IMG/VR virus record: IMGVR_UViG_3300023210_000115
Location: 1-34,288 of that record
DNA: 34,288 nucleotides
Reading direction: 5' to 3' (one strand)
DNA from: a virus
Below, piece by piece: positions 4,049 through 33,783 of this stretch (the first letter of the stretch is position 1; every line of letters starts with the position of its first letter). Below the pieces are notes generated by a model. That model was not told the origin of the DNA. It made no database searches and was given only the letters and a program-made list of their open reading frames with translations. A program made the position numbers and the translations under genes.

Positions 4049-4056
4049 GAGGGATA

Positions 4057-4221: not shown

Positions 4222-4367
4222 TGTCCCTTTGGTGTACCAACGCTAAGTGCTCCGATAAGGGGCACTGTAAGCGTTTTATTGCTAAAACCAGAGACACTCA
4301 CATCGTGACTAAACCAAAAGGTGATGAGTGTCCATATTATATTAAAAAGAGGAAGAAGAATGCCTAA
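4221..4367 (+). CDS. 48-residue Cys-rich, possible zinc-binding protein
   Basis: This small ORF fills an otherwise empty gap. It starts with the ATG of a TAATG overlap at 4221 and ends at the TAA at 4365-4367, overlapping the next gene by 8 bases. It reads M-S-L-W-C-T-N-A-K-C-S-D-K-G-H-C, then a basic middle, then D-E-C-P-Y-Y and a Lys/Arg-rich end. Four Cys and one His in a C-x4-C-x5-C ... C arrangement suggest a metal-binding knuckle. The exact fit between the stop of the previous gene and the start of the next supports it as real. No family is recognised. Confidence 0.5.
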   Translation: MSLWCTNAKCSDKGHCKRFIAKTRDTHIVTKPKGDECPYYIKKRKKNA

Positions 4368-4584
4368 GCAGATATATACAATAAAGACATTTCACGGCAT
4401 GGTCACAAATGAAGACCTTGAGGACTTACCAGATACAACAGCATACTTATGTGAAAATGTAGACCCCTTTGTGGTTACTAAGGTGCAAGGTGCGAGAAGA
4501 CACCTACCAATGGATCCAGATGGGATTGAGGATGAAAATAACGACATCATTATAATCTTGCCAGATCCACCAGCGGAGGCATAA
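4360..4584 (+). CDS. Small tail-associated protein
   Basis: I chose the ATG at 4360, preceded by AGAGGAAGAAGA, giving 74 residues rather than the longer open frame from 4321. The pattern F-H-G-M-V-T-N-E-D-L-E-D-L-P-D-T-T-A then C-E-N-V-D-P resembles the extreme N-terminus of podovirus tail nozzle-type proteins, which often begin with a conserved F-x-G-x-x-x-N-x-D-x-x-D-x-P-x-x-x-A ... N-V-D motif. Here it is a separate small gene two genes upstream of the giant nozzle-like gene, so it may be a detached anchor segment. The stop overlaps the next start (TAATG). Confidence 0.5.
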   Translation: MPKQIYTIKTFHGMVTNEDLEDLPDTTAYLCENVDPFVVTKVQGARRHLPMDPDGIEDENNDIIIILPDPPAEA

Positions 4585-5072
4585 TGCCAGAAGAATTAAA
4601 GAAACCAGATACGGCCTTGTATGATTTTAGGATAACGTGGCTAGATAAACACAATAAACGACAAGTTAAGTTTGTAGCCACACAGGGATATGACGATTTG
4701 TTTGAGTCGTTCTCTGAGCAATTTAACTGTGTTAAGACAGCTGCTGGCAATGGCATCGTTATACGCCTTCCCCAATACTCATCAAACCTAAAAATAACAC
4801 ACGAACTACCTATAATGGAAGATGAGGCTGAAAAATGGGATGGAGACCTACCTAACGACTTCATGCATCCTCCCTGTATTCTTACTGGTGGTAATTATTT
4901 AATAACAGAAGACGACAGTACTGAGGTTATAGATAGAACAAGTAACCCCAACAAAACACACACAACGAGAGACTCCATCGTAGATAAATCTATTTATGGT
5001 GTAAATGTGTTTAATGTCTCGAAAGATGCAGTCCTCACGGATAATAACAATACAATAGTAAGGAGGCTGTAG
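4584..5072 (+). CDS. Unknown tail-region protein
   Basis: The protein has 162 residues and starts at a TAATG overlap with GCGGAGGC upstream. It is beta-rich with a short helix, D-D-L-F-E-S-F-S-E-Q-F, and an N-terminal D-F-R-I-T-W-L-D-K-H-N-K-R-Q-V-K-F-V-A. I recognise no domain. It lies between a small nozzle-like N-terminal protein and the 1908-residue protein, and its stop (TAG) overlaps the GTG start of the latter, so the three are translationally coupled and probably act in the same tail structure. Confidence 0.5.
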   Translation: MPEELKKPDTALYDFRITWLDKHNKRQVKFVATQGYDDLFESFSEQFNCVKTAAGNGIVIRLPQYSSNLKITHELPIMEDEAEKWDGDLPNDFMHPPCILTGGNYLITEDDSTEVIDRTSNPNKTHTTRDSIVDKSIYGVNVFNVSKDAVLTDNNNTIVRRL

Positions 5073-10798: not shown

Positions 10799-11058
10799 GA
10801 AAGTTACATTTGCAAGCATTCAGAGTGACAGATACCACAGACACCAACAAGGCATTGAGTAGTGCTGTGAAGCGTATCTATGATGATATTAACAAAATAG
10901 CACACGACCTCAATGAATCCTATGTTGATCCCAAGAAAGACCATCAGGGGTATGAAGGGCAAGTGAGGGTTATTGAAAAGAACGGGAAACAAATAATTCA
11001 ATTTAAAAAAAAGAAAGGTTGGACTAATGTCACAGTACCAACTGAAGGAGGAGAGTAA
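10795..11058 (+). CDS. Small basic protein after the nozzle gene
   Basis: This 87-residue protein starts at an ATGA overlap with the previous stop. The N-terminal half is helical (S-S-A-V-K-R-I-Y-D-D-I-N-K-I-A-H-D-L-N); the C-terminal half reads Q-V-R-V-I-E-K-N-G-K-Q-I-I-Q-F-K-K-K-K-G-W, a strand-turn-strand. The final G-K-Q-x-I-x-F-K-x-K-x-G-W pattern is common in small structural proteins found between tail and ejection genes of podoviruses. No function can be assigned. It is coupled to the next gene by TAATG. Confidence 0.45.
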   Translation: MRKLHLQAFRVTDTTDTNKALSSAVKRIYDDINKIAHDLNESYVDPKKDHQGYEGQVRVIEKNGKQIIQFKKKKGWTNVTVPTEGGE

Positions 11059-11543
11059 TGGGATTTTTCGGACCAGACCCAAATGACATCTATAAGACTG
11101 CGATGAATTTCGATCAAGTTAATACCGATTTTCAGAAGCAAATTGGACAGCAAATGTTTAATCCAAACAGTGCTTATAACCAGCGTCAATTGGGAGGTAT
11201 TCAGCAACAAGGAATGGACCAGATAAACAACAACTGGAACATGTCAAACAAACTTGCTGCAATGGGAAGAGGATTGGGTGCTCAGCAACGAGGGAATGCT
11301 TTTGCGTCACAGACAGGAGAAAGTATGTTTAAAGGTTTTAATGGTGCTTTGGGGCAAAATGCACAAATGGGCATGGGGCTACTTGGACAAGGACTCCAGG
11401 GAGACTCATCAAACATGCAAATGCAACAAGCTGCTGCAATGGCACAGGCAAACACGATGAATCAAAACAGTGCAAACCGAATGGGCTTTATAAATAGTGC
11501 AATGGGTTTAGCAGGACAGTTCATGCCTGTCCTAGGGATTTAG
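11058..11543 (+). CDS. Gln/Met/Asn-rich internal virion (ejection) protein candidate
   Basis: The protein has 161 residues and starts at a TAATG overlap after GGAGGAGAG. Composition is strongly biased: many Gln, Asn, Met, Ala and Gly, few charges. After an N-terminal F-G-P-D-P-N-D it is helical with repeats such as Q-M-Q-Q-A-A-A-M-A-Q-A and ends in a hydrophobic G-L-A-G-Q-F-M-P-V-L. Small Ala/Gln-rich helical proteins of this kind are typical of the internal core or ejection proteins of podoviruses (T7 gp14-like in size and bias). It is the first of four such genes in a row, all upstream of the giant protein. Confidence 0.55.
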   Translation: MGFFGPDPNDIYKTAMNFDQVNTDFQKQIGQQMFNPNSAYNQRQLGGIQQQGMDQINNNWNMSNKLAAMGRGLGAQQRGNAFASQTGESMFKGFNGALGQNAQMGMGLLGQGLQGDSSNMQMQQAAAMAQANTMNQNSANRMGFINSAMGLAGQFMPVLGI

Positions 11544-11544
11544 G

Positions 11545-12426
11545 ATGCCAGCAACATTTCAACCAATGCAAACCAATTGGAACTTTGGGCAAAACATAGC
11601 ACAATCCATGAACCAAAGAAGAGCATTAGCCCTCCAGGACAAGCAACACGCTGAGGCTTTAGCTGCAAAAAGGGAACGAGAAGGTGTGTTGGATGCAAGA
11701 TATGAGAAATCATTGAATCGTCAAAACATGAAAGAGGGAATGGCGGGGTACGCTAGAGATTATATCCACAGTCAAATGTCTGATTTAGAGTTACCAGACA
11801 ATCTAAATCTTGAAGATTTATCAAACTCAGAATTGTTTAATTTCCTACAACGAGATAAGTCTGATTTACGAAAAGGTGCTATTGATTCTTATATGGATGA
11901 ATCAAACCTTTCACCGGCTGACAGAAAAGCTTACTACGGTATGTTGAACACACAGGTTAATGACCAACTATTAATGGATGTTATGGCGGAACAGGGAAAT
12001 AAATTTCTTGACCCAATCGCCAATGCGTTCCAAACTAGACACGGCGATGACTTTGACCAAGGCGATATTCAAGAAGCGTTCAAAAGGATGGAGCCATCGC
12101 AAGTTAGAGCTTTGCAAAATATGACATCAAACGATATTCACGATGAGGGTACATGGAGTTCATACTTACCTGAGGAATATAATATCCCAGGAGCAAAAGA
12201 CCTCTATTATGAGGGATTAGAAAAAGGTGGCTGGGGTGATGCACTGCAAGCATGGACAAATAAGATTCAGTTTAACGCAAACAACTTATTTAAAGGGGTA
12301 AGCGACAAGGAGCAAAATTGGAAAGAGTTTGGAGAAAGTGGGCAAGAAAAATATGATGATTTTGATATGTATGGCGAAAAAGGCAGTCTTATGGATAAAT
12401 GGGGAAGACCATTATTGAGTTTTTAA
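11545..12426 (+). CDS. Internal virion (ejection) protein candidate
   Basis: The protein has 293 residues, with an ATG one base after the previous stop and a purine-rich GGGATTTAGG before it. The N-terminus W-N-F-G-Q-N-I-A-Q-S-M-N-Q-R-R-A-L-A-L-Q-D is followed by a long charged helix (to ~70), a pattern frequent at the start of phage ejection proteins. The rest is mostly helical and acidic with no catalytic motif. It lies in the same cassette as the Gln-rich, Ala/Gly-rich and peptidoglycan-binding proteins. The role is inferred from composition and context. Confidence 0.5.
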   Translation: MPATFQPMQTNWNFGQNIAQSMNQRRALALQDKQHAEALAAKREREGVLDARYEKSLNRQNMKEGMAGYARDYIHSQMSDLELPDNLNLEDLSNSELFNFLQRDKSDLRKGAIDSYMDESNLSPADRKAYYGMLNTQVNDQLLMDVMAEQGNKFLDPIANAFQTRHGDDFDQGDIQEAFKRMEPSQVRALQNMTSNDIHDEGTWSSYLPEEYNIPGAKDLYYEGLEKGGWGDALQAWTNKIQFNANNLFKGVSDKEQNWKEFGESGQEKYDDFDMYGEKGSLMDKWGRPLLSF

Positions 12427-12438
12427 AAAGGAGATTAA

Positions 12439-13341
12439 ATGTATAATATTTATGGTGAAGCACTAAAACAACCGCGGGAGCAATTAATGAATCCGCAAGC
12501 TTTACAGATGCAGATTGCATCAAACAAGATGAAAATGACCCAAGATAGTGCAAGGAAACTTGTTCGTAAGTACAACGAAAGACCAAAGAGTTTAAGTGGT
12601 GAAGAGGTTGTACGGGCAATGGAAGCCGCCCAGATGTATGGGTGGAATGTTAGTCGTGGTAGAAAGAAAGATAAAACTGGCGTTGACGATGCTTTGTTTG
12701 GTCTTATTGGCGGTGCTGTAGACGGAGCATTGCTGGGGCTTGTACCCGATAAGTGGTACAGTAACAGAAGAAATAAAGGATGGGGTAAGGCTGGTAGGCT
12801 TGGTGGAGTAGCAGCATCATTAGCTATACCTGGTGCTGGATTCCTACAAGGAGCAAAAGCTTCTACTAAGCTCGGCAAAGCTGGCTTGTGGGCAGCGAGA
12901 AACATGACAACAGCTGGCATGGGTGCTCAAGCAAAAAGAATGATTGGTGCTGGTACATTGGCGGCAAGGTCAGCAATGGCAGGGCAACAAGGTGCAGCTG
13001 GAAGTGTAAAGCGAGTTGCACAATTAAGGCGGTTGGCTAAAGGAGCTGGCGGATTTAAGCCAGCATGGCAACAAGCTGCATTCGCAGGAATGAAAGATGC
13101 TCCAATAGGTAGTGGGCTTATGAATCTTAATGGATTAGGTGTTAAGGGATTAGAAACAACCAAAGCTATGGAAAAGATTGCACAAGCAAAAGCCTTGTTA
13201 ATGAAATATGGTGCTGGGGCTGGCGTTGCTGGTGCTGGTATATATGCACTGGGTCATCAAGGAAAAGATAATAGTTATGACCCTTATGAAGAAATGATGG
13301 CAACGCAAATGCCACAAATGCCACAAATGCCAGGGATGTAG
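12439..13341 (+). CDS. Ala/Gly-rich ejection protein with membrane-active segments
   Basis: This 300-residue protein starts after AAAAAGGAGATTAA. The first ~80 residues are a charged helical region. Then come glycine-zipper-like hydrophobic stretches: about residues 88-108 (A-L-F-G-L-I-G-G-A-V-D-G-A-L-L-G-L), ~118-138 (L-G-G-V-A-A-S-L-A-I-P-G-A-G) and ~255-272 (A-G-A-G-V-A-G-A-G-I-Y-A-L). The middle is Ala/Lys/Arg-rich. The C-terminus ends in three Q-M-P repeats. Such proteins in T7, P22 and N4-type phages insert in the host envelope during DNA ejection. Membrane insertion is an inference from sequence; the family is not named. Confidence 0.55.
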   Translation: MYNIYGEALKQPREQLMNPQALQMQIASNKMKMTQDSARKLVRKYNERPKSLSGEEVVRAMEAAQMYGWNVSRGRKKDKTGVDDALFGLIGGAVDGALLGLVPDKWYSNRRNKGWGKAGRLGGVAASLAIPGAGFLQGAKASTKLGKAGLWAARNMTTAGMGAQAKRMIGAGTLAARSAMAGQQGAAGSVKRVAQLRRLAKGAGGFKPAWQQAAFAGMKDAPIGSGLMNLNGLGVKGLETTKAMEKIAQAKALLMKYGAGAGVAGAGIYALGHQGKDNSYDPYEEMMATQMPQMPQMPGM

Positions 13342-13342
13342 A

Positions 13343-14155
13343 ATGTCAAGAATACAAGGGGTGCCAACAAATTTTGATTTAACAGGAATAGGTGCTTTTA
13401 ATGTAGAGACTGATGGGGAGCGTGGCTATAACCACCTCAACAGACAGGGAGATATGTTTCGTGCACAAGCTGATCCAGATATACAAACTGGCGGCGGAAG
13501 CAATGTTTCACCACATCAAGTTACGGCAAGTCAGTTTGAGGATATAAGAGGAGTGTCAAATACGCCCGAATTCATGCAATATACACCAATGGAAAACGCA
13601 CTCCCCGCACAACAAGGTCCAGGTTTTTTTGGTAGAATGTATAACACAATCGATAAGGGGTTGGGTGGAATCTTACCAGGTGGTCAAGATTTCAATGAAG
13701 GCTACCTAAAAAAAGGATATGACGCAATTGGTGGATACGAAGGGATAGATAAGACCGTAGGTGGCGTTTTACCAGGTGGTCAACCAGTTGGAGAGGGATA
13801 CATGAGCAAGGGTTATAATGCTATTGACCAAACCATGGGCGGTTATTTGCCAGGTGGTGTGGAACGAGGCGGTGCACCTGTACAAACTCAACTACAAGCA
13901 GCACCTTCTCAACAACACCCATATAGTCAAAGTGGATGGGGGAGTGATAAAACCGATGCTCAAATCAGAGAAATGCAAAGACGGATTGGGACTAAGGTGG
14001 ATGGTATGTGGGGTCCAAAGTCAGAAGCTTCCCTGAGTGCTTTTCAAAACAATGAGCGAATGGCACAAAGATCAGATTTAGCAGACAGGGATAATCCAAT
14101 GACACGCAGAGGTTTTCGTGTGTCGGGTGGCGATGCCCTACCTACGATGATGTAG
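13343..14155 (+). CDS. Ejection-cassette protein with C-terminal peptidoglycan-binding domain
   Basis: This is a 270-residue protein. The N-terminal half is low in structure and Gly/Gln-rich. Three imperfect repeats centred on I-D-x-x-x-G-G-x-L-P-G-G lie at residues 103-115, 135-147 and 161-172, separated by G-Y-x-x-x-G-Y-[DN]-A-I spacers. Residues ~207-235 read Q-I-R-E-M-Q-R-R-I-G, then V-D-G-M-W-G-P-K-S-E-A-S-L-S-A-F-Q, the core of the PG_binding_1 domain, which binds cell-wall peptidoglycan. The domain is followed by ~35 residues. The start is two bases after the previous stop. A role in holding or guiding the ejection machinery at the cell wall is inferred; no hydrolase motif is visible. 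Confidence 0.65.
   Translation: MSRIQGVPTNFDLTGIGAFNVETDGERGYNHLNRQGDMFRAQADPDIQTGGGSNVSPHQVTASQFEDIRGVSNTPEFMQYTPMENALPAQQGPGFFGRMYNTIDKGLGGILPGGQDFNEGYLKKGYDAIGGYEGIDKTVGGVLPGGQPVGEGYMSKGYNAIDQTMGGYLPGGVERGGAPVQTQLQAAPSQQHPYSQSGWGSDKTDAQIREMQRRIGTKVDGMWGPKSEASLSAFQNNERMAQRSDLADRDNPMTRRGFRVSGGDALPTMM
13649..13858 (+). repeat. Three imperfect coding repeats (I-D-x3-G-G-x-L-P-G-G)
   Basis: The three copies start at 13649, 13745 and 13823 and each encodes I-D-[KQ]-x-x-G-G-x-L-P-G-G. Unequal spacing (32 and 26 residues) and diverged codons show this is an old protein-level duplication rather than a fresh DNA repeat. The copies lie just upstream of the peptidoglycan-binding domain and likely form a Gly/Pro-rich stalk. 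Confidence 0.6.
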
Positions 14156-14185
14156 ATTCTCTCAACAAAGGAAAATATATGTGGG

Positions 14186-14210
14186 TGGGGGATCACGAGA
14201 GTGACCCCCA
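14186..14210 (+). promoter_or_regulatory. GNRA-type hairpin upstream of the giant gene
   Basis: TGGGGGATCAC pairs with GTGACCCCCA around a GAGA loop (14197-14200), with one bulged A at 14192, giving ten base pairs. It lies in the 75-base gap between the peptidoglycan-binding protein and the giant gene, 20 bases before the start codon. No T-run follows, so it is not a standard intrinsic terminator. It could limit read-through, stabilise the mRNA or serve as a hairpin promoter; N4 virion RNA polymerase recognises hairpins, but its hairpins have smaller stems. The role is open. Confidence 0.5.
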
Positions 14211-14230
14211 TACACAACCAAAGGAGTTTT

Positions 14231-17200
14231 ATGTACACACCTCAATCAAACATAGCATACACACCACAAGAAACAAAGCAATATATTCGCTTTTATAGAA
14301 AAAACCCGAGAGCTTTTTCACATGACCAAGTTAGGTCGTTAAAACAACACGCACAACACTACAACATCTCTGTAGATGAGGACGAGTTAGATAATACCTT
14401 CAGTCCGCTTCGTGCCATTAGAAGTGCTGGAGAAGGGTTTCTCTCGGGCTTTACTACAATTAACATAGGCGATCAACCCAAGAATCAATATGAAGGTATT
14501 GCAAGGTCAATAGGACAGTTGGCTGGTTTCGTGGGGTACTTACCATCTAAACCCATTTCTGCAGCAAGCAAATTAATGGGTGGTGTGGGTTGGATGGATA
14601 GAACAGCTGGTGTTTTAAAAGCCGCAAAAGGTTCGTCTATCCCTATGTATGGTGCTGGTCAGGCTGAAGCGCTTGCGGGTATTGCTGCGAAAAAACTCCT
14701 TGTGAAAGGAACAGCGAGCAAGGTTAATGCGGTAAAGTCGGTGTCCAGTTTCTTGTCAAAAGAAATCCCCACCGATATGCTAAAGGGTGCTTTTCACATG
14801 GGAACTGCATCAGCTATTAGTTCGTGGCAGGGTGGCGTTAAGGAAATGGCAAATGCTTTTGGGCATGGAGCCGTTACGGGTACTGTCTTTAGAGGTGTTG
14901 GTAATGTGGAATCAGGATTGGGTGAAACTATTGACCGTGGCCTACGAATGACGGCTATGTCACTACACTCAGGCTTACCATCAACAATGCACGGAGCTAC
15001 GACAGAGGAGCAGGTGTATGAGTATCTACTAGGGGCTTACTTTGGATACAAAGAAGGTCCAGCTTATAAGCGTAATGCTGGTAGATATGTAAATGATTTA
15101 ATAAAAGCAGGTAAAGACGCATCAACTGCTGGGACTGGAGTTGGTTTTGACCAACTATCTACTAAGGCAAAGGCGGAAGTCCCTTTGATAGTAAACAAGA
15201 TTTTCGGACTCACTGACCGTCGTAATTCTATGATAGAGCAGATAGCAGGTAAGTTTAAAATACCACTCATCAGGGCGGAAGAAGTCTACAATGAGTATCG
15301 TGCTGTTGCTGAGATGAAGCATGAGGTTATGCAGAAGACAGGGGATGAGGTGGTTGCTGAGGGGATTGCAGCACGACTCAAAAAGGGTGAGAAGAACCTT
15401 ATTCCTAATCTTACAGAACTTCAGGCATACAACGATGTTGAGGGTATAGAAAATCTAACGAGTGGTGTTGATAGGTATGTAAAGCAACACACGAAATACT
15501 GGTCAGCTAACCCCGAAGCAACAGCTGGTGAGTTAAGACAGAGGGCATTGGATGTCGGTATAAAACTCCAACACACATACGAGAAAGTTGTTGATGAACA
15601 AAAGAAAAATGGGAGAATAGTAAAATATTCAACCGACGGTAAAGCTAAACCAGAAGATGTTGGTTATACATCATTATCTGATTATGTTTCAGATTTCTTG
15701 GTAGACCAATACGGAGAAGAACCCTTTAAGCCTGATTCAGATAAAGGTAAAATATGGACACAAAAAGGAATCTATGCTAATGGTAAACACAATAAGCGTA
15801 TGATTAATATGTTTGTCGGCTACGGTCGACGTGGACCAGAAGGAGACTTTTCCAACAGTATAGAAGGCACAGAATTTGAAATCGGTGACGGTAGTCGTAT
15901 GTTCAACAAGCTTGGTAATCAAATAGGAGTTACATCACCCCCTGAATTCATGGATGAGATTTTTAATACTGCAGAAAAAAGATGGATGGAAAATGGTGGA
16001 GGTTACGAGAAGGGAGACAAAAGACCGCAGGGGACTGTTTATTTAGATAGTGTAGTTGTAAGTAGATATGGTAAGGTGAAGGAAGTTAATGCTTATGATT
16101 TAAATTCAGAAGAACGAGCAGTTGTTTTTGGTGAAATGGATAAAGCGGGATATATTTACGAGGGTGGTAGGGGTGATGCCCAAACAATGCGCTTCGTACC
16201 AATACATCCTGAAATTAGATATGGAGTTGGTAATAACGCTAAACGCCTAATGAAGATGTTTGGCGGAGTTGAAAATATCCACGAAAAACAACTACGCGGA
16301 TTTTCTGAATTTGCCAAGTCGAGGGGCAAAGATGTATTAGGATTAATGCCATCGCAAATAAAGACAGTCAGGGGTCAGCGTAATTACTTAAATAAAGTTA
16401 TGGATAAGTTTCCAGGAGTAAAAGCTGCTTATGACAAAGCTATTGTTTCAAATGCATTATATCTAAAAGACATGGCTGGTGTGGGTAGTCTCAAGGAATA
16501 TTTCAAGGCTGATGGCTTTATTAAGAATGCCATTGAATATAACAAAAGGCAAGCCATCTACAATACAGCTGGATACACAGGGGATATGAATCTCGCAAAA
16601 GGTGAGTTTTATGAACACGAAGGTGTTCCTGTGTTGCGTGTTTTGCGCGTGTTTGATGAATCGGTGGGTGTAGATCAAAAGAAACTACATAAAGGTAGCT
16701 CTGTATTTGATTATATGGAGGCAACTGACGGAGGTACGCTCCAGACGGAGGAAACAGGTAAAGCACTTGCATACATTACGGGTCAATCATTCGAGGGTAA
16801 ACATAAAGCCAACGTTAGGTTTCTGGGTAAAGAAGGACGTATTCTACAGAAAGATATGTTTCACCTACCGCCAAAAGGCATGAATAAATTCATGACCAAT
16901 AGTGGGATTGATTTAATAGTAAGAGAATCAGGAACTAAACAAAGGGGAAATAGTCCCCTGTATAAAATGAGGCGACTAGCTCCCGTTGGTGGTAACGAAG
17001 ATATAGCTATATACGATTCACGAGGACAACGGGTAGTGTCAGGATATGCAGTTGATTATGTCCCCGTATCATCAGTAAAAACAATTATGTCCGAAACACA
17101 TAAATTAAAAAATACAAATAAAACGATTGCTCCGAAACAGATGTTTACACAATTAGGACATAGTGAAAATATGGATACTATGTTTAGTGACCTTATCGAG

Positions 17201-20200
17201 GGTAGTCTGAACGGAACAACTAAAGCCAATAAAACAATAAGTGACTACTTAATCAATAAAGACCCAGCCCTAATAGAGCCTGTTCTCGAAAATCTAAACG
17301 ACATCAGTATGGATTTACTGGGACATGTATTAAATGTTCCTGGTGCCGAGAAATTAGCATCTCGTGTTTTAATGAAAATGATAGATAAGAACTCTAATTA
17401 TGTTAGATCCATGTATGATGCTGGTGAGTTGAGCAGAGAGGAGTTTGTTCAGTTTGTGGAGATGGAAGAGATATATAAGAATCCAGCAAAACGCCAACTG
17501 AATATGGATAATGGAAGCATGGCTATGACAACACACGCGAACACAAATAAGTATGTTGATCAGGTTATAAAGCAATATTATTATTCACGTGCCACAAACC
17601 CTAAGCCTGGCAATGGGACAAAGCAAAGAACTCAGGTATGGGATAGAGCTTTAACTGAAAAAGTAGACTGGGACGGAGCTGTTGGAGATGTTATTTCCGC
17701 TAAAGGAGAACACCTTCCAGAGGGTTCGGTTCTTAAAAAGATATACGGAGATAAGAATCCAGATAGATTCGTATTTTTCAATGAAGCAGGGAGGCATCAA
17801 AAATATACCTTCTCTGGGTCAGAAATGAAATTAGGTAAAATATGGGAGGACTTTACAATACTTATGAGGTCTGGTAAGGCATCAGAAAAGGTACTTACAC
17901 CCTATAGAAAATTTTTTAAAACATTAAACATAAGAGTTCCAATGTCTGCGGCATCTGCTGCACAAACGCTTTACTTTGGGGGCTTTACAGGAATCAAGGG
18001 ACAAGGGGTATTGCTTCATCCTCGCGTGATGATTCTACTTGATGGTGCTGACCATGATGGTGACACAGCAACTACATTTTTTGGTGGGAGAGAAATTCAT
18101 AAGAAAGGCTTAGACTCAGAATGGTTTAAGGATTTTGAGAAAGTTGAAGAAGAGTTTTATGAAACCGACCCCAATACAAAAATGAGAAGACTTAGTAATC
18201 CAAAATCAGATGAAATGATAATGAAGTATACATTGAGTGATCCAAAATATATGGAGTTAATGCGTAGCAAGTGGGGTTTGGTTGATCCAGGAGCACGTTA
18301 TAGGGCTGCAGAGGGAGCAGCACAGGGTCGAGGTGTCCTTGGACCTACCGTAGCTGCTAAAGCTCAACTACTGGCTGCTTTTGACCACCTCGTAGGCAAT
18401 AAGATTGATTTCATTGACATAGTTGAGCCTAATAAAAAAGGGGCTCCTGCTGTACGCCATGTCTTCTCACCAAAGAAAGATTCTTTAGCGAAAAACAACT
18501 TCATAAAAGAAGCACGAGCAATGCTTTCATTTGCTTTTGACCCAATGAATCAGGGTGGATTAAGGAGTGCTGATTATTTTTTTAGGGCTATGTTTGGTCA
18601 ACTTTTTGATCATGTTGGTTCATTCGATGTGATGACAAAAGAAAATATGGCAAAACCGCTTGGTACGATAGACACAAAGCACCTTCGTAAACTTCCCGTA
18701 GTGTCAGATATGTCTCATGTCAATAAGCTTGTGTGGGGTCGTGATGCAAATGGTCGAAAGTTTCCATTTAGACAATTGCGAAGATTACTGAAACACTCAT
18801 ACAGGAATATTCAAGGTAAAGAATTTAATTCATTTTACTCAAAACTGGGTAATGTTGTCCAGGAATCAAATCTTGATGTTGATATCTTGAGTAAGTTTAA
18901 TATGAAAAGGCTAGAGTCATCTATTGAGAAATACAATATAAGTGTTGGTGCTGTAAGGGATAAAGACGGTAAACGGATAAAAGGTGCTAACAAAAATAGC
19001 AATGAGCTCAGGGCGATAACTGGATACGATAGTTCTAAAATTAATTTTGAACCAGGCTCACCCATTAGAAAATTACTTGAAAGCAATATATGGCATGACT
19101 CTGTTTATGAAAAATATTTAAGTGCTATCGACCCAAAAGATAAATTATACGAAGAACCATTTACTATGCAGTATGTAGATACAAAAGTAAAGGCTAAGGA
19201 TAGAAAATATAAACCACGAAGAGTTACATTGAAAGATCATATTCTAAGCAAGGAGGGTCTTTTGGGTTATGAAAGAAAATTACGCAACCCAAGAGAACGA
19301 GCTAAAGCTCTTGACTCTGCCGAGCGTCAAGCTAGAGATTGGTTGGGACAAGTGGTGTCTGACATGGCTTCATTAGATTCAATAAAGACTGAGTTCTGGA
19401 GATTTAAGAATGAAGCACAAAGAAATATAGATATTAAAAACAGTGAATTTGCTCCCGTTATCCAGAAACTAATGCTAAAAGCTGACGAAATAAAGGGACT
19501 TGCGTACACAAAAAATGCACACGATATTGACCCTAATGCAAAGAGATTTTCTCGTAGCGAGATTGATGATATGATAGGAGGATTCTTAGAATCCACATTT
19601 CCTAACAATAAAATGACTAAGGCTAGAAAGCATATGAGAAATATCTTTGACCAGATAATGTTAGGTACTCTAATGCATAAAAAAACTGCTGAAGAATTAG
19701 GCTTACTTAAAGACGGAAGACACTACAAGACACAACATACGAGAGTTGGTTTTCAGTCTGCCAGTATTAGTGATGAAAGTTTACAAAAACATGTAAATAA
19801 TTATAGAAAAAGATTTGCCGAGGTGATACCAGAGGTTAAACCATACGAAGAGAAGAAAGCTATTGTGCAATCTAGCGAGGTTACAGACCTAAAGAGTATT
19901 GTCGAAAGCAAACCTATAGTGAGGCAACAGTTATCCGAACCAGGAAAAGTTATTCAGGAGAAGAATTTATCACCTGAACAAAAAACATACATGAACGATG
20001 TAATGTATCGTGAAATTATAGGCGGGGTTGAGGATATGTCTACAATCCCCAAAGACATAAAGAAGGTTGTAAGTTATGTTGTTGAGAAGTTAAATAAGTT
20101 TAACCCCGAGTCTCATCCATGGGAAAAGGGTAATAACTTGAATGACTTTATTCGTAGCACAGTTGGGAAGGATTTAAATAAGTTGGATTATACGGACATA

Positions 20201-23173
20201 AGATATCTAAAGAATTGGTTTACCGACTTAGAAATAAAAAATGGCTTTATACACAAAGGTAAGACACCCGATTTCTCCGAAGGTGTTCCTTTGTCTAAGT
20301 GGCATTACATATTTTTTCCCAAAGCTGTTGGTGAGAACCTAATGAAAGCGGGTTTTGAGTTAAAGTCTCAAGTGACAGCGTGGCAATCAAAACAAGGAAC
20401 CGTTATAGGTAAAGCTTTACAGCCCACAAACGTAATATCAGATATACAAAAGATAGCTGAAGCTACAGGTAATAGAAAGCGAAGAGCTTTTGAAGTCCTA
20501 AGCAAAAAGTTTAGTGATGATATTTATAATTTATCAGCAAATAATCCTGAGTTTGAAAACTTCTGGAGTATTGCAGCATTAGAAATGGAAATCGCTAATG
20601 GTGGATTAACTTATCAAGTAAAAGATTTAATAAACCCACGAGAGATATACGGTAGAAAGAAAACATATCTAGATAGATTTAGAAAAGTAGCTAAAGATAC
20701 AAATTGGCTAAAAACAAAACACGAGACATATAGAGTTGGTGGTAAGGGTGAAACCATGACTGGTCGTGAAGTGGTGGATTCTATCAAGGGTGTTATTAGA
20801 AGGTATACCGATATTGGTGGTAAGTGGATAACGGGTGACTCTGAAAATAATCTATTATCTCAATTCCTCGAAAGAGATACGACAAAAGCAAAATGGAAGG
20901 GTAAATACCCTTTAAAACTACACGTAGACGGAACACCCATGGTTAATTTTAAAATCAGAGGAGATAAGAAGTCATCCTACTATCAGTGGGCTTTAGATAA
21001 TCTCAATACTGCTGTTGAGGGTGGTATGGAGTTAGGGTTTGACGGTATGTCTGTCATTACTAGATCAATGCAAATGCAACAGATTAATGCTAACCTAGAA
21101 AGATTAAATAAAGCAAAGACTCAGGCTACAACCAAGACAGAAGCTGGTGTTATAAATGAAAAGATTAAGGAGCTTTATGGTGAAATTAGAAATATGCAAA
21201 AGTATAAAATCAAACCAACAGCATTAAGGGCAAGACAATTTTATTACCCACATATTAAAGCTGACGCAAGAATGGCAGCATCAGATTTGTTGGCTCGATA
21301 TAAAGATATTGATTTATCTTCACTTAGTAGTAGTGAAAAAGATATAGTAAAGAAAAGTTTAGCTACTGAATATCATATGAGTGTAAATGGCGTATACAGT
21401 CCTGTTGAGATGGATGTTATATTGAGAAGTAAATCACTCGGCAAGATACTAGGTGAGATTGCTGTTGAGAAAAACAGTAGCGAGGTTGCGGGTAATTGGT
21501 TTCGTGCTCAATATAAATTTGGAAATGCCCAGAGAAGAGAACATCACATTGCTGGTTGGGATCTCAGTTCTGATGCTTTTGTTAATTCATATATGAAGGG
21601 TATGATAGATAAGTATTTTTCTTCTCAAGCTCAGATTCTATCGGCCGCAAAGATAGGTGAATTCAAACACTTTGGAATGAATGGATGGGATAAGGGTATT
21701 AGTGCTGGATGGACAAACTACCTCAATGCTTTCACTCAACAGGTTTTGGGTAATCCAGTTAATATAGCTGACGAAGTCGCTAATGACCCTAAGATGAAAA
21801 TGAATGGTGTGTTCTCTCAATGGAGAGATAACCATGTAGCAAAAGTTATGCAAAAGGTTGCTGAGAAACTAAAACTAAAGAAAATTACTATCAAGGGGCT
21901 TAATGAAGTATCAGCAAACGATGTTGTTAAGTGGGCGAATGCAGAAGCACGGTATCAACTCGCAACACTCCTAGCTCATCCTAAGTCCTCCCTAAATAAT
22001 ATATTCGGTGGAACGATGCATACTGTAGAGAGTGTTGGATTGGGCAACTTCTTGAAGGCAAAGAACCTTTCTCACATAACGGCTGCAATAAGTCCTAAGC
22101 TGAAAACATGGGAAGATGTTAATAGTTGGCTAAAGGAACTTGGTATTCAGGAAGAGTTTCTCCGTAGTGAGTTAAACTTTAACCCAGCCTTTAAGGGTGT
22201 TAGGATGAAAAAAGCAGGAACTGAAATATTTAATCTCCTGATGAGTGGTAAGGTTAAGGAATTACCTGCTGTTTTAAAGAAACACAAGGTAACGGAAGGG
22301 ATGTTAGAGAAAGCTGGGTGGTTTATGCGTAATCCAGAGAAGATGCTTCGTAGGGATGCATTCCTGGCACACTATCTCCAGGCACTTGAAAATTTAGGTG
22401 GTAGTGTTGATGACCCTTTAAAAAATCCATACCTAATAGAGATAGCAAAACGAGGAGTTCAAGCTACGCAGTTTCTATATTCAGCTCCATTTAGACCTAT
22501 GTTTTCTAATACTGCATTAGGTAAGGTGGTAACTCGTTTCCAGTTATGGGCATGGAACTCAGTCAGGTTTAGGAATGATGTCATAAGAGAAGCAAAGCTT
22601 AGGGATTTTAGACAAGGTACTCCTGAGTTTGATAGATTTAAAAGAATGGCTATGATTGATATGTTTGTATTGGCTATGGGAAATGCCTTTACATATTCAT
22701 TATTTGAAACAGCATTACCTCAACCGTATGCATGGGCACAAGACATAGGTGATTTCTTATTTGGTGATACAGAAGAAAGGGAAAGGGCTTTTTATGGAGC
22801 TTATCCTGGTGTTTTTGCACCACTTCAAATGGCAACACCTCCATCAATGAGGATGGTTGGTCCTACAATAAATGCTCTCTATGAAAATGACTGGAGTAAA
22901 CTTGCAAATTATCATGTATGGACAATGTTTCCTTTTGGTAGAATCGGAAGAGATATGGTGGGGATTTATAAAAATCCTGGCATGATGATTGAAAAGACTA
23001 CAGGATTACCTTATAGGAAAATACCTAGATACAAGAACGAGTTAGCAAAAACTAACCCAAAGAGACATCATGCTTTTGGTATTGGGTATAATAAAAAGAT
23101 GCCAAAAAACAAATGGCTTGATGAAAGAATTGATAAGATAAAAGAAAAAGAGAAAGAAAAATCTATTGAATAA
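14231..23173 (+). CDS. Giant virion-type protein with a double-psi beta-barrel RNA polymerase signature
   Basis: I chose the ATG at 14231, after AAAGGAGTTTT, giving 2980 residues. Residues ~70-240 have ejection-protein-like Gly-rich hydrophobic segments (G-F-L-S-G-F-T-T; Q-L-A-G-F-V-G-Y-L; H-G-A-V-T-G-T-V-F-R-G). Near 1235-1285 it reads R-V-P-M-S, then G-Q-G-V-L-L-H-P-R-V, then D-G-A-D-H-D-G-D, with D1274, D1276 and D1278 matching the metal-binding N-A-D-F-D-G-D of RNA polymerase beta' and its L-H-P-x-V about ten residues before. A possible partner barrel lies at ~830-905 (T-D-G-G-T-L-Q-T ... R-E-S-G-T-K-Q). The C-terminal ~400 residues carry H-P-K-S-S-L-N-N-I-F-G-G and a conserved W-A-W-N-S-V-R-F-R-N-D region, duplicated downstream. 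It is probably packaged and injected with the DNA. crAss-like gp66 is the nearest known idea, but order and length differ. Confidence 0.65.
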   Translation: MYTPQSNIAYTPQETKQYIRFYRKNPRAFSHDQVRSLKQHAQHYNISVDEDELDNTFSPLRAIRSAGEGFLSGFTTINIGDQPKNQYEGIARSIGQLAGFVGYLPSKPISAASKLMGGVGWMDRTAGVLKAAKGSSIPMYGAGQAEALAGIAAKKLLVKGTASKVNAVKSVSSFLSKEIPTDMLKGAFHMGTASAISSWQGGVKEMANAFGHGAVTGTVFRGVGNVESGLGETIDRGLRMTAMSLHSGLPSTMHGATTEEQVYEYLLGAYFGYKEGPAYKRNAGRYVNDLIKAGKDASTAGTGVGFDQLSTKAKAEVPLIVNKIFGLTDRRNSMIEQIAGKFKIPLIRAEEVYNEYRAVAEMKHEVMQKTGDEVVAEGIAARLKKGEKNLIPNLTELQAYNDVEGIENLTSGVDRYVKQHTKYWSANPEATAGELRQRALDVGIKLQHTYEKVVDEQKKNGRIVKYSTDGKAKPEDVGYTSLSDYVSDFLVDQYGEEPFKPDSDKGKIWTQKGIYANGKHNKRMINMFVGYGRRGPEGDFSNSIEGTEFEIGDGSRMFNKLGNQIGVTSPPEFMDEIFNTAEKRWMENGGGYEKGDKRPQGTVYLDSVVVSRYGKVKEVNAYDLNSEERAVVFGEMDKAGYIYEGGRGDAQTMRFVPIHPEIRYGVGNNAKRLMKMFGGVENIHEKQLRGFSEFAKSRGKDVLGLMPSQIKTVRGQRNYLNKVMDKFPGVKAAYDKAIVSNALYLKDMAGVGSLKEYFKADGFIKNAIEYNKRQAIYNTAGYTGDMNLAKGEFYEHEGVPVLRVLRVFDESVGVDQKKLHKGSSVFDYMEATDGGTLQTEETGKALAYITGQSFEGKHKANVRFLGKEGRILQKDMFHLPPKGMNKFMTNSGIDLIVRESGTKQRGNSPLYKMRRLAPVGGNEDIAIYDSRGQRVVSGYAVDYVPVSSVKTIMSETHKLKNTNKTIAPKQMFTQLGHSENMDTMFSDLIEGSLNGTTKANKTISDYLINKDPALIEPVLENLNDISMDLLGHVLNVPGAEKLASRVLMKMIDKNSNYVRSMYDAGELSREEFVQFVEMEEIYKNPAKRQLNMDNGSMAMTTHANTNKYVDQVIKQYYYSRATNPKPGNGTKQRTQVWDRALTEKVDWDGAVGDVISAKGEHLPEGSVLKKIYGDKNPDRFVFFNEAGRHQKYTFSGSEMKLGKIWEDFTILMRSGKASEKVLTPYRKFFKTLNIRVPMSAASAAQTLYFGGFTGIKGQGVLLHPRVMILLDGADHDGDTATTFFGGREIHKKGLDSEWFKDFEKVEEEFYETDPNTKMRRLSNPKSDEMIMKYTLSDPKYMELMRSKWGLVDPGARYRAAEGAAQGRGVLGPTVAAKAQLLAAFDHLVGNKIDFIDIVEPNKKGAPAVRHVFSPKKDSLAKNNFIKEARAMLSFAFDPMNQGGLRSADYFFRAMFGQLFDHVGSFDVMTKENMAKPLGTIDTKHLRKLPVVSDMSHVNKLVWGRDANGRKFPFRQLRRLLKHSYRNIQGKEFNSFYSKLGNVVQESNLDVDILSKFNMKRLESSIEKYNISVGAVRDKDGKRIKGANKNSNELRAITGYDSSKINFEPGSPIRKLLESNIWHDSVYEKYLSAIDPKDKLYEEPFTMQYVDTKVKAKDRKYKPRRVTLKDHILSKEGLLGYERKLRNPRERAKALDSAERQARDWLGQVVSDMASLDSIKTEFWRFKNEAQRNIDIKNSEFAPVIQKLMLKADEIKGLAYTKNAHDIDPNAKRFSRSEIDDMIGGFLESTFPNNKMTKARKHMRNIFDQIMLGTLMHKKTAEELGLLKDGRHYKTQHTRVGFQSASISDESLQKHVNNYRKRFAEVIPEVKPYEEKKAIVQSSEVTDLKSIVESKPIVRQQLSEPGKVIQEKNLSPEQKTYMNDVMYREIIGGVEDMSTIPKDIKKVVSYVVEKLNKFNPESHPWEKGNNLNDFIRSTVGKDLNKLDYTDIRYLKNWFTDLEIKNGFIHKGKTPDFSEGVPLSKWHYIFFPKAVGENLMKAGFELKSQVTAWQSKQGTVIGKALQPTNVISDIQKIAEATGNRKRRAFEVLSKKFSDDIYNLSANNPEFENFWSIAALEMEIANGGLTYQVKDLINPREIYGRKKTYLDRFRKVAKDTNWLKTKHETYRVGGKGETMTGREVVDSIKGVIRRYTDIGGKWITGDSENNLLSQFLERDTTKAKWKGKYPLKLHVDGTPMVNFKIRGDKKSSYYQWALDNLNTAVEGGMELGFDGMSVITRSMQMQQINANLERLNKAKTQATTKTEAGVINEKIKELYGEIRNMQKYKIKPTALRARQFYYPHIKADARMAASDLLARYKDIDLSSLSSSEKDIVKKSLATEYHMSVNGVYSPVEMDVILRSKSLGKILGEIAVEKNSSEVAGNWFRAQYKFGNAQRREHHIAGWDLSSDAFVNSYMKGMIDKYFSSQAQILSAAKIGEFKHFGMNGWDKGISAGWTNYLNAFTQQVLGNPVNIADEVANDPKMKMNGVFSQWRDNHVAKVMQKVAEKLKLKKITIKGLNEVSANDVVKWANAEARYQLATLLAHPKSSLNNIFGGTMHTVESVGLGNFLKAKNLSHITAAISPKLKTWEDVNSWLKELGIQEEFLRSELNFNPAFKGVRMKKAGTEIFNLLMSGKVKELPAVLKKHKVTEGMLEKAGWFMRNPEKMLRRDAFLAHYLQALENLGGSVDDPLKNPYLIEIAKRGVQATQFLYSAPFRPMFSNTALGKVVTRFQLWAWNSVRFRNDVIREAKLRDFRQGTPEFDRFKRMAMIDMFVLAMGNAFTYSLFETALPQPYAWAQDIGDFLFGDTEERERAFYGAYPGVFAPLQMATPPSMRMVGPTINALYENDWSKLANYHVWTMFPFGRIGRDMVGIYKNPGMMIEKTTGLPYRKIPRYKNELAKTNPKRHHAFGIGYNKKMPKNKWLDERIDKIKEKEKEKSIE

Positions 23174-23197
23174 AAAAAAATACGCCCCTTACGGGAT
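23171..23197 (+). other. Truncated terminator at the end of the giant gene
   Basis: The stop TAA runs into an A-tract, then TACGCCCCTTACGGG, then breaks into ATCGATTGGG. The first ~24 bases match the left part of the terminator at 25175-25201 apart from one extra T, but the right arm GGGGCGT is missing after GGG. Only a weak three-base-pair stem can still form, so it should not terminate on either strand. It reads as a recombination junction inside a terminator copy. Confidence 0.75.
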
Positions 23198-23200
23198 CGA

Positions 23201-23710
23201 TTGGGCTGGGATGAAGGTACTCCAGAGTTTGAAAGATACCAAAGAATGATTACTGCTGATATGATGGTACTTGCCTTAGGTAATGTGTTTATGTATTCTT
23301 TATTTGAAACAGCATTACCAGCTCCATTAGGTTGGGCTCAGGACTTAGCAGATTTAGTTTTTGGAGACGAAGAGACAAGAGACAGAGCGTTCTTCGGTGC
23401 TTATCCAGGAGCTGCTGCACCATTGCAAATGTTCACACCTCCTTCAATGAGAATGGTTGGACCAACAATGAATGCAATATTAAATGATGACTGGTCGAAA
23501 ATGTCTAGTTATTATGTTTGGACAATGGCTCCCTTCGGAAGAATTGCTAGGGATGTACTTGGTGAAAGTGGTTACTTAAGAGAAGGCCCAGCAAGATTTA
23601 TCGAGAAATCATCAGGTGTTCCTTTCCATGGTTCAATAAGAGAAGCTAAGAAACTAAGAGATGGTAAATATAGACGAGGCCCTATGGGCACAAGATATTA
23701 CGGAGATTAA
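23201..23710 (+). pseudogene. Detached second copy of the giant protein's C-terminus
   Basis: This stretch encodes 169 residues from a TTG with no visible ribosome binding site. From G-T-P-E-F onwards it aligns with residues ~2796-2915 of the giant protein, with shared blocks L-F-E-T-A-L-P, G-A-Y-P-G, A-P-L-Q-M, T-P-P-S-M-R-M-V-G-P-T, P-F-G-R-I. About two thirds of ~115 positions are identical by eye; then the two diverge. It lies in the same frame as the giant gene, and the frame is open from the codon after the giant gene's TAA. It lacks everything upstream of this segment, so it looks like a remnant of another giant-gene allele. It could still be translated from an internal start or by stop-codon read-through. 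Its end fits closely to the next gene (stop, then ATG at once). Confidence 0.75.
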
Positions 23711-25177
23711 ATGGGATATAAAACAGGTAGAAAAATATCTAGATTCTTAAACACAAAAGAAGGCGAGGGGCGTATTCCTGACTCGTGGCCAATTATAGGT
23801 TCAAAAGAAAAATTGACTGATTGGCTTACTGTTGGGGAAATAGACAAGGAAGAAGGTAGGTTGCAGTGGGGAGCATTCAAGGCAAATCACCCTGTATTTA
23901 CTGGTTTCTTCGAAGCGCAAGGTGCACATATGTTTGGTGTTGATTACAATCAACATTTGAACACAACAGGTATGAACGAAAAACAAGCAAGTCAGTATAA
24001 AGCGGCCAGTAAAGTTGGACACCTTACACAGGCAGCTGGCGATATAATTATAGCTGCTGGCGCAGGTAAACAATTAGTTAAGAATGGGCGCATGGATATG
24101 ATTATGGATATGATAAATTACTACAAACCACCGCAATACAAGGGTGATATTATAGATGGAACTTACTCATACCCTGAAACACAAAAAGCACTACCATATA
24201 AAACACAAAAAGCACTACCATATAAAACACAAAAAGCACCACGGGTAATTACTAGACAAAAACCTCCGCGTACGAGTGATGGCGTTATGCGTGATGTGGG
24301 GTCTAGGGTATCGTTGCACCCGGTGCCGCGTCCCACCGCCCCACCCGAGGCGAGGGGGGAGCTAATAAGAACTATTCAAAACTCAATGAAAACCGGAAAA
24401 CCTTTTATTATTCCGCCCACTTTTGCTAATGGCTTCCCCATTAAGGATATGTGGGGGGATTTAAGAGATCGATTTTCCGACGTTAGACGAGGCCGGAATG
24501 TAGAAATAAGAAAAGAACCTGGGTTAGTACAAAACCGAACAGGTAATTTAATCAACCCTCAAACAGGTAAAGCTGATTTACCTACCGCTAGTGCTGTTTC
24601 AATGCCTATGATATATACAGGAGGAGCAGTACCAACTTACGATTCAGATATAAATTCACTAGAAGACCATGTAGCCGTGCAAGTTGGTTATGACACAAAA
24701 GTTGATTTCATTAAAGCTATTCAATATCTTCAAAGTTTAGGTAAATTTAAAGATGATAGATTTAGTGTTTATGAAACACCAGCTGGTTTACGAATCATGG
24801 ATATTGGTAAAGCCCTGGGGGAGCCGCAAGATCCAAAAATGATAGATATCTTTAAGCAAGATAAATTCTATACATCATTTACTATTCAAAGATATAATAA
24901 ATTTCTTAGAGATAATGGCTTTGATCGACAACTAACAGAGCGAGCAGCGGATATAACCAAGCTTGGCGTAGGAGCTCCTTACGCTGCTCGTCTTTCCCCT
25001 AAATATGGTCGTAAGGATGATTATGTAGCAAGAAAGCTTTTTGACTTCGGTGGAGGTAAGGCTAATCCTAAAGCCGTAGATGCAGTAAAAAAATACCACG
25101 ACAACATAATTGATATCATTAAGTCAGAAGGGGCTCATATAAACATTGATAAGTTAATAAGACTTATAGAGGAATAA
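23711..25177 (+). CDS. Unknown protein, last + strand gene
   Basis: The protein has 488 residues, with an ATG directly after the previous stop and CGGAGATTAA as binding site. The N-terminal ~110 residues (with W-P-I-I-G-S-K and an A-A-G-D-I-I-I-A-A-G-A-G segment) look like the hydrophobic C-terminal sections of ejection proteins. Then a short tandem repeat (T-Q-K-A-L-P-Y-K), a Pro/Arg-rich linker coded by a GC-rich patch, and a C-terminal ~190-residue region with Y-T-S-F-T-I-Q-R-Y-N-K-F-L, then P-K-Y-G-R-K-D-D-Y-V-A-R. I recognise no family for the C-terminal region. The composite build (two regions joined by repeats and an odd linker) suggests fusion or assembly by recombination. The gene ends directly at the convergent terminator. 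Confidence 0.6.
   Translation: MGYKTGRKISRFLNTKEGEGRIPDSWPIIGSKEKLTDWLTVGEIDKEEGRLQWGAFKANHPVFTGFFEAQGAHMFGVDYNQHLNTTGMNEKQASQYKAASKVGHLTQAAGDIIIAAGAGKQLVKNGRMDMIMDMINYYKPPQYKGDIIDGTYSYPETQKALPYKTQKALPYKTQKAPRVITRQKPPRTSDGVMRDVGSRVSLHPVPRPTAPPEARGELIRTIQNSMKTGKPFIIPPTFANGFPIKDMWGDLRDRFSDVRRGRNVEIRKEPGLVQNRTGNLINPQTGKADLPTASAVSMPMIYTGGAVPTYDSDINSLEDHVAVQVGYDTKVDFIKAIQYLQSLGKFKDDRFSVYETPAGLRIMDIGKALGEPQDPKMIDIFKQDKFYTSFTIQRYNKFLRDNGFDRQLTERAADITKLGVGAPYAARLSPKYGRKDDYVARKLFDFGGGKANPKAVDAVKKYHDNIIDIIKSEGAHINIDKLIRLIEE
24179..24239 (+). repeat. 24-base tandem repeat, 2.5 copies, in coding frame
   Basis: The unit ACACAAAAAGCACTACCATA plus TAAA is present twice without mismatch (24179-24202, 24203-24226), followed by 13 bases of a third copy to 24239. 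It encodes T-Q-K-A-L-P-Y-K repeats. The perfect identity indicates a recent slippage duplication, and the unit length of 24 keeps the frame. Confidence 0.9.
24319..24362 (+). other. GC-rich patch inside an AT-rich gene
   Basis: By count, 37 of 44 bases are G or C, in a genome where the surroundings are clearly AT-rich. It encodes a Pro/Arg/Ala-rich stretch of the last + strand protein. It contains runs such as CCGCCCCACCC and GAGGGGGGAG. It may be a foreign insertion, a slippage-prone linker, or a recombination scar; there are no flanking inverted repeats that I can see. Confidence 0.6.
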
Positions 25178-25201
25178 AAAAAAACGCCCCTTACGGGGCG
25201 T
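25175..25201 (-). terminator. Intrinsic terminator at the convergence of both gene arms
   Basis: ACGCCCC and GGGGCGT form a perfect seven-base-pair stem (25184-25190 with 25195-25201) around TTAC. Read on the - strand, the hairpin is followed by a run of T (the A-tract at 25176-25184), giving a textbook intrinsic terminator for the leftward operon, six bases after the end of the phosphoesterase gene. On the + strand it is followed only by ACTCTTTA, so it is weaker there. It separates the two convergent transcription units. Confidence 0.85.
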
Positions 25202-25206: not shown

Positions 25207-26076
25207 TTATAAGTCCATATGAACTATGATAGGGGTCTTGCCTTCCAGTAGGACTCCTATGTTTATTTGTGGTCTTGAGAACCATTTACCATAAGCAGCT
25301 GCATAGGTATTGTTATCCATGCCACAACCTAACTGCATAGCATAAGTCTTCCTATCAGAACCTACTTGATATTGAATATAACTCTTAGTGTGATAATGAC
25401 CTTGAATTACATTAACCATATCTTGTCTCATTCTATTATGAGCAACTCTACCCATTCCATGACACACAAGAGTATTATCGTCTATCCAAAAGTGTTCTGC
25501 AAACTCCCATTCTGGTACATCTAAAACCTCATCAACACTTCGTATCCACCGTTTTGATAAGCCAGCATTAAAAGCTTTGCGATTAGGAACATTGTCATGA
25601 TTGCCCAGTACCACTCGAGCAACTGGAAATGCTTCATAAAATTCCTGAAGTTGTTCGATAGCTTTATCCAGCTCTGCAGAAGCAGATAACCCATCAGGGT
25701 CAGTGTCGTGAAAACTACTATAGTGATTATCAATTAAATCTCCTAGGAAATACACTTCATCGCATTCCCATTTAATATACTGTGCTATACAGAACTCCAG
25801 AAAACCGTCTCTAACGAACGGGGCATGTAAATCTGGTATGAAGAGTATATTGCCTTTAGTTTTGCTCTTCACGGCTGTATTTGACCCCTTCACGGCAACA
25901 TTACTATTGTCGGGGTGTGCTACATGTCCATGGTTGTATAGAATTGTTCTTATCTGCCTAATGGTTAAATTCCAGTCTTTTGCTATTTCCGCTTGTGTCC
26001 CACCACGCTGATGCTCTTCAACAATTAAGTTCTGTATGTGATATGGAACAACCACTCGTGCCTTTATTTTCTTCAT
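25207..26076 (-). CDS. Metallophosphoesterase with N-terminal helix-turn-helix
   Basis: The protein has 289 residues; the ATG at 26076 has AGAGGAGATTT upstream. Residues ~14-50 form a helix-turn-helix (G-T-Q-A-E-I-A-K-D-W-N-L-T-I-R-Q-I-R-T-I-L) of resolvase/sigma-region-4 type, followed by a short linker. The rest is a calcineurin-like phosphoesterase with all metal ligands: D82 and H84 (D-L-H), G-D-L-I-D at 112-116, G-N-H-D at 158-161, H206 (C-H-G), G-H-Y-H at 226-229. Such enzymes hydrolyse phosphomono- or diesters, sometimes nucleic acids. The HTH fusion suggests a DNA-targeted activity. It is the last gene of the - strand operon and overlaps the preceding gene by 59 bases. The substrate is unknown. 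Confidence 0.85.
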   Translation of the reverse strand: MKKIKARVVVPYHIQNLIVEEHQRGGTQAEIAKDWNLTIRQIRTILYNHGHVAHPDNSNVAVKGSNTAVKSKTKGNILFIPDLHAPFVRDGFLEFCIAQYIKWECDEVYFLGDLIDNHYSSFHDTDPDGLSASAELDKAIEQLQEFYEAFPVARVVLGNHDNVPNRKAFNAGLSKRWIRSVDEVLDVPEWEFAEHFWIDDNTLVCHGMGRVAHNRMRQDMVNVIQGHYHTKSYIQYQVGSDRKTYAMQLGCGMDNNTYAAAYGKWFSRPQINIGVLLEGKTPIIVHMDL

Positions 26077-33048: not shown

Positions 33049-33783
33049 TTACTTAGCCACATCAAACTTCTTTAATACTTGTTTCATAAGGTCATCTGCA
33101 GTTTTGATATTATAGAAGTCCTTTACTCTACTACCACCAAAGCCAAAGCTACTGGTGGAACTTGCATCGAATGATACGCCAAGATAATGCTTACCGTCAT
33201 CATCTTTTTCTGGTTTAAAGATACAGTGTGCATCAGCTGTATCATGTACCATTCGTTTTGTTTTACCCGGTAAATCCATATCCAGGTAAGTTACATTCTT
33301 AGTTGTAACATCACTTGAAGCTAACTTCAGGTGAGTTACCGTGATTAATAATGGAGCAATCTTAAAACAAGTGTTTATGAAATTAAACAGAATGTCTCTT
33401 GTCCCACTCCAACCACTACCATAAGGCATTTCAGATAAGTCCTCAATACCTTTATCTTGACAATACCATTTTGAGATCATATTTGCCAACTTATCGATAG
33501 GGTCAAGAACAATAACATCAGGGTTAATTGCCTCAATGTTCTCGAGAACCCTTACCATCTTACTTCTTAAGTCTGGTAAATTATCTACATCGATGAAACT
33601 TCCTACATACGCCTTAGAACCTTTCTCAAAGTCAAAATACACAGTTCTAAGTTCCTTGGATAAGTTCACACAAAACTCTGTCTTACCTGACTTGACAGAG
33701 CCTGTGATGTTAATCCACTTGTATGATGGCTCCTTGTTTATTGTTGCAATGTCAATACCTAAATCTTTAAAAACATCTATCAA
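33049..33783 (-). CDS. RecA-like ATPase, Sak4-type recombinase candidate
   Basis: The protein has 244 residues. The TTG start at 33783 overlaps the preceding stop (TTGA) with GGGGAGGA upstream. Walker A is G-S-V-K-S-G-K-T-E-F (28-37), followed by V-Y-F-D-F-E-K-G; Walker B is D-V-I-V-L-D-P-I-D (~89-97); T-V-T-H-L-K is the sensor-like strand. This layout is the AAA_24/Sak4 group of phage RecA-core ATPases that promote single-strand annealing and recombination. It lies directly upstream of an accessory protein and the primase-helicase. It could also be a DnaB-independent helicase loader; the Sak4 call is preferred by length and motif spacing. Confidence 0.75.
   Translation of the reverse strand: MIDVFKDLGIDIATINKEPSYKWINITGSVKSGKTEFCVNLSKELRTVYFDFEKGSKAYVGSFIDVDNLPDLRSKMVRVLENIEAINPDVIVLDPIDKLANMISKWYCQDKGIEDLSEMPYGSGWSGTRDILFNFINTCFKIAPLLITVTHLKLASSDVTTKNVTYLDMDLPGKTKRMVHDTADAHCIFKPEKDDDGKHYLGVSFDASSTSSFGFGGSRVKDFYNIKTADDLMKQVLKKFDVAK

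Follow-up and report, generated by a model that had tools for sequence, protein, structure and literature searches.

An orphaned gene end behind the giant gene of an IMG/VR phage, probably imported from a related phage with the gene that follows it

The stretch of DNA analyzed here, which comes from an uncultured phage and which we call the window, covers positions 1 to 34,288 (34,288 nt) of IMG/VR record IMGVR_UViG_3300023210_000115. Its giant gene is followed by a second copy of its own 3' end (copy 1 is the resident end, copy 2 the one behind it), and the question is how copy 2 came to be there and whether it serves as a spare. We believe, with a probability of roughly 0.78, that a related phage's giant gene was the source of copy 2, which is its orphaned 3' end, and that the downstream gene, gene 23711, was brought in with it. 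We read it as an ordinary trace of gene exchange and see no sign that it acts as a switch. It is a clear scar of gene trading behind the largest gene in a little-known phage group. The initial annotation had offered two readings of the repeat. Its suggestion that the repeat is left over from exchange with a related phage is supported, while no evidence supports the other, a reservoir from which the protein's end could be swapped. The features are collected in Table 1.

Table 1. Features of the window around the repeated gene end, with the encoded recombinase.
Feature	Position	Strand	Remarks
Giant gene	14201..23173	+	2990 aa, intact; ends TAA at 23173
Copy 1	22616..23173	+	Resident C-terminal end of the giant gene
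T1	23174..23195	+	Truncated terminator copy (AAAAAAATACGCCCCTTACGGG); the hairpin's 3' arm is reduced to GGG and the stable hairpin is lost
Junction	23196..23204		Also in contig IMGVR_UViG_3300024259_000103
Copy 2	23204..23710	+	3' gene end (GWDEGTPEF...RYYGD), probably orphaned from a related giant gene; open frame
Gene 23711	23711..25177	+	Cargo-slot gene, 488 aa; no homologue found; predicted ribosome-binding site CGGAG in the last codons of copy 2
T2	25177..25201		Full convergent terminator ACGCCCC-TTAC-GGGGCGT; stem 25184-25201; T-run on the minus strand
First leftward gene	25207..26076	-	Metallophosphoesterase-like
Sak4-like gene	33049..33783	-	Sak4-like single-strand annealing recombinase

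An end of about 130 residues that occurs twice, 600 bases apart, had been described from the sequence, and it is there: 22614-22913 and 23214-23513 form a direct repeat at a spacing of exactly 600 bases, with 71% ungapped identity. The sequence at residue G2806 of the giant protein (GTPEF) recurs 600 bases on and continues to a stop at 23710. Blastn aligns the two copies at 73% identity over 335 nt, so the earlier estimate of two thirds identical is fair for the DNA and too high for the protein, where identity is 56-59%. Tblastn of one copy against the other puts amino-acid identity at 57-59% with an E-value of about 1e-57, so the resemblance is far beyond chance. The frame of the giant gene stays open past its TAA (AAA AAA ATA CGC CCC TTA CGG GAT CGA TTG GGC TGG GAT GAA GGT ACT and so on) and runs through copy 2 to the ending RYYGD, also as annotated. 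GTPEF is present in both copies, although the family match in copy 2 starts earlier than had been said, at G-W-x-E. Copy 2 lacks the roughly 2800 N-terminal residues and matches the giant-gene family only from G-W-D-E on; it is a 5'-truncated homologue of the giant gene's 3' end, directly downstream of it on the same strand. The copies are colinear only up to about 22960, beyond which there is a 4-residue gap and then unrelated tails. The tail of copy 1 (HHAxxIGYNKxMP) is common to L046, a different phage, and is missing from copy 2.

Searches with these proteins returned little. The giant gene had no Pfam or PHROGs match above cut-offs, copy 2 and gene 23711 had none in either database, and tblastn of isolated phages with copy 2 and the giant C-terminus found no match. 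There was also no match in searches of PDB sequences, Rfam and tRNAs. The AlphaFold prediction for the giant C-terminus is all-helical and weak (pLDDT 73, pTM 0.38), and Foldseek with this model returned only two unnamed viral sequence homologues. For gene 23711 the AlphaFold model was uninformative (pLDDT 34).

The spacer between the copies had gone unnoticed in the initial annotation. It is a truncated duplicate (T1) of the terminator at 25184-25201 (T2), and differs from 25177-25197 by one mismatch in the 21 bases scanned. Hairpin folding gives -16 to -19 kcal/mol for T2 and -7 to -8 kcal/mol for T1, the latter from an unrelated fold. Since sequence matching the giant-gene family, from G-W-D-E, lies directly behind T1, the join falls between 23195 and 23204.

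Our comparison drew on 178 loci that encode this C-terminus, nearly all of them in IMG/VR and two on bacterial MAG contigs, which gave 103 distinct C-terminal sequences. The end is present once, fused to the giant gene, in all relatives fetched from outside the window's species, and two copies occur only in the window and its near-identical partner contig. A second copy kept as a conserved separate gene in all relatives, the pattern that the initial annotation would have counted against its readings, was not seen. Trees built from 73 and 86 sequences make copy 1 and L046 sisters (support 100/98) and place copy 2 outside the pair. The two copies are thus not each other's closest relatives, as they would be after a recent duplication; forcing them together costs 27.5 and 18.0 log-likelihood units, with p-AU values (0.0475 and 0.0453) that are borderline. 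Copy 2 sits on a long branch, its best relative is 58% identical, and in one tree it is the nearest sequence to copy 1 plus L046 (93/92). Among the sites where copy 1 and L046 both leave the family consensus, copy 2 has the consensus residue at 11 and theirs at 9, which points to a sister lineage as its source.

Over most of the aligned giant gene, starting at residue 1091, the nearest relative is L046, and its contig has the same genes as the window to the right of 25207. There the homologue of the first leftward gene lies downstream of the giant gene with neither copy 2 nor a cargo gene between. Because both flanks look L046-like, it is most likely the segment 23196-25176 that came in. The reading as a remnant of exchange is supported by a copy 2 that is truncated and foreign, a copy 1 nearer to L046, and relatives with a single copy. 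In composition, copy 2 and gene 23711 are not distinct from the rest of the genome, so the direction of transfer is not readable from composition.

Copy 2 looks like an end that was in use until recently. Its dN to the outgroup L048 is 0.415, compared with 0.409 for copy 1 and 0.440 for L046, and its changes are concentrated at third positions. A drifting spare would show more, and we take the dN, which is like that of intact gene ends, to mean that copy 2 was functional as a gene end until recently. It has no ribosome-binding site or translation start of its own: its candidate starts have binding energies of -4.1 and -0.9 kcal/mol, where many of the window's genes reach -8 to -12 kcal/mol and the background quartile is -4.0. 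Judged from these signals, copy 2 is probably not made as a protein today. Fusion to the giant protein by readthrough or slippage was considered and seems not to apply: the A-run overlaps the TAA and extends beyond it, and the sequence shows no signal for either.

The position behind the giant gene is a slot that gains and loses genes. In 41 of the 71 classifiable relatives the giant stop is succeeded by a rightward gene, usually with a TAATG overlap; in the other 30 the slot is empty and convergent leftward genes come directly next. The state of the slot changes at least 8 times on the tree. For example, L047 and L048 share 97% identity as far as the giant stop and about 94% beyond it, and a single 1.4-kb gene, located between that stop and the next module, is present in one and absent from the other, while L049 and L058 have deletion scars at the stop codon of the giant gene. 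The cargo genes of relatives belong to several families with no mutual similarity by blastp, one of them a glycosyltransferase. Gene 23711 had no significant profile match to these families and no match in 30 relative records; since no homologue was found, it is assigned to the cargo by its position. The window unites both kinds of end: copy 1 with its terminator is an empty-slot end, as in L046, and copy 2, TAAATG and gene 23711 form an occupied-slot end, in which the junction with CGGAG within the last codons resembles that of occupied-slot relatives. This wider pattern, in which unrelated cargo genes enter and leave a slot between the giant stop and a convergent operon, can be counted, and we did not find it described in a limited literature search.

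From these observations we infer that illegitimate, homology-assisted recombination joined the resident genome to a donor. On the resident side the join would lie just behind the giant gene, inside the terminator that follows it. The donor's giant gene would have been cut about 168 codons before its stop and its next gene, now gene 23711, carried along, with the resident giant protein retaining its own end. The cut terminator T1 should allow rightward transcription into gene 23711, and the intact T2 behind this gene would still halt the leftward operon. Copy 2 and gene 23711 would accordingly be the newcomers. The Sak4-like protein is a plausible agent of low-identity exchange here. Rad52-like recombinases (PMC3945230) and Sak4-type proteins (PMC5499656) have been linked to exchange between diverged sequences, and Sak4 is also a subject of PMC5928155. 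Several points count against this account, among them the borderline AU values, the long branch of copy 2 and the lack of a homologue for gene 23711. No donor with copy 2 on an intact giant gene was found in IMG/VR, only the window shows where the segment ends on the right (25177), and the near-identity of T1 and T2 is hard to square with phages as diverged as copies 1 and 2.

The same anatomy would be expected if the roles were reversed, with a resident giant gene that ended in copy 2 and was followed by gene 23711, and an L046-like end (copy 1 plus terminator) inserted upstream so that it displaced copy 2. Displacement that leaves orphan ends behind is documented for CDI/Rhs (PMC3150448) and T6SS loci (PMC5361080), and identity of the giant gene to L046 does jump from 0.21-0.23 over residues 2291-2490 to 0.57 from residue 2491. 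We consider this unlikely, although it is the alternative that we take most seriously: L046 is also nearest over most of the aligned gene upstream of that jump, starting at residue 1091, and the genes that its contig shares with the window right of 25207 make the resident L046-like on both sides. Tandem duplication of the gene end within the lineage, with later divergence, would account for the exact, in-frame spacing of 600 bases, for the similar codon usage, and for the place of copy 2 next to copy 1 and L046 with nine unusual residues in common. We find it quite improbable. A recent duplication is disfavored because the sister of copy 1 is L046 and not copy 2 (AU p 0.045-0.048, borderline), and L046 has no second copy. 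Copy 2 also lacks the tail of copy 1 and L046 and has kept the consensus at the 11 sites that they changed, and an untranslated duplicate should not hold an open frame and a normal dN over such divergence.

The terminator copies that flank the segment raise two further alternatives to the import of a donor's gene end and cargo gene. One is a possible target-site duplication by a mobile element; searches of the segment gave no transposase or endonuclease match. The other is an assembly chimera at a shared repeat, for which one could also cite the two contigs of the same population that break near the segment edges, at 23322 and 25378. We regard a chimera as extremely unlikely. The partner contig, IMGVR_UViG_3300024259_000103, is identical to the window from 5254 to 23322 (18 kb) and so contains the left junction, and it has 27 mismatches at 2234-5253 and an unalignable region elsewhere. 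The same join in a contig with differences elsewhere speaks against assembly error, and the join is not within a long repeat.

Whatever its origin, copy 2 could in principle be a spare end. As the initial annotation pointed out, recombination that removes the 600 bases from one copy to the other would keep the reading frame and leave a giant protein ending in RYYGD, and we note that it would recreate the arrangement of occupied-slot relatives. If such recombinants existed, this would be a two-form giant phage protein. The copies are in direct orientation and in register, the phage encodes the Sak4-like recombinase, and the longest exact run at the offset of 600 bases (22700-22719 and 23300-23319) is 20 nt. 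The partner contig ends 3 nt past this run, which might reflect heterogeneity and is a lead, not evidence. We nevertheless judge it very unlikely that the copies form a maintained switch, with recombination yielding a sub-population of the RYYGD form, and just as doubtful that the orphan end is a loaded alternative, with phage recombination regularly producing minority genomes in which an RYYGD-ended giant gene is joined directly to gene 23711, so that the population has two forms of the protein. No recombinant was found among the relatives fetched or elsewhere in IMG/VR, which is a weak test since the junction is covered by just two contigs of the species; the one other than the window is arranged in the same way up to the point where it ends. 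The exact run is only 20 nt, no other lineage keeps a spare end, and a switch of this kind would be one-way since the deletion loses the end of copy 1. An invertible end-switching cassette is ruled against by the direct orientation of the copies, and no inverted repeats were found around the alternative ends (those nearby are 12-17 nt long and 497-2165 nt apart).

Mosaic exchange between phages is usually a clean replacement, unlike the window, where a partial duplicate remained. By relaxed recombination, related phages swap low-identity segments with their own recombinases (PMC3945230); a Sak4-like protein is encoded in the window too. Closest among known cases are the orphan cdiA-CT/rhs ends and displaced T6SS effectors, which are alike in anatomy and not in toxin biology. 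The orphan cdiA-CT/rhs ends are 5'-truncated, lie directly behind a very large intact gene, mostly have no start signals and each have a further gene behind them; a deletion in one strain loaded such an end onto the main gene (PMC3150448). Copy 2 has the same anatomy. However, the ends in the window are homologous along most of their length and are not polymorphic toxins, and the window has no VENN motif, no immunity partner shown, and a single orphan, in a phage. An orphan toxin module of the CDI/Rhs kind was rejected on this homology and on the lack of a Pfam or PHROGs match. T6SS effectors are displaced by homology-facilitated illegitimate recombination (PMC5361080), and there too an incoming module beside its homologue leaves old parts behind, although these are bacterial effector-immunity arrays in which the retained part is an immunity gene with a proposed benefit.

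We also made a few observations outside the repeated end. Within gene 23711, positions 24177-24239 hold a perfect 24-nt tandem repeat (2.6 copies, encoding KTQKALPY repeats) near a GC-rich patch at 24300-24360. The two relatives of the giant C-terminus in MAG contigs, L191 (JAHISV010000010.1) and L192 (PMMO01000176.1), are labelled Bacteroidetes and Ignavibacteriae, which gives a hint of the hosts of the wider group. Near the left end of the window, positions 323-2228 are unalignable to the partner contig (G001) and make up a variable module together with 2234-5253.
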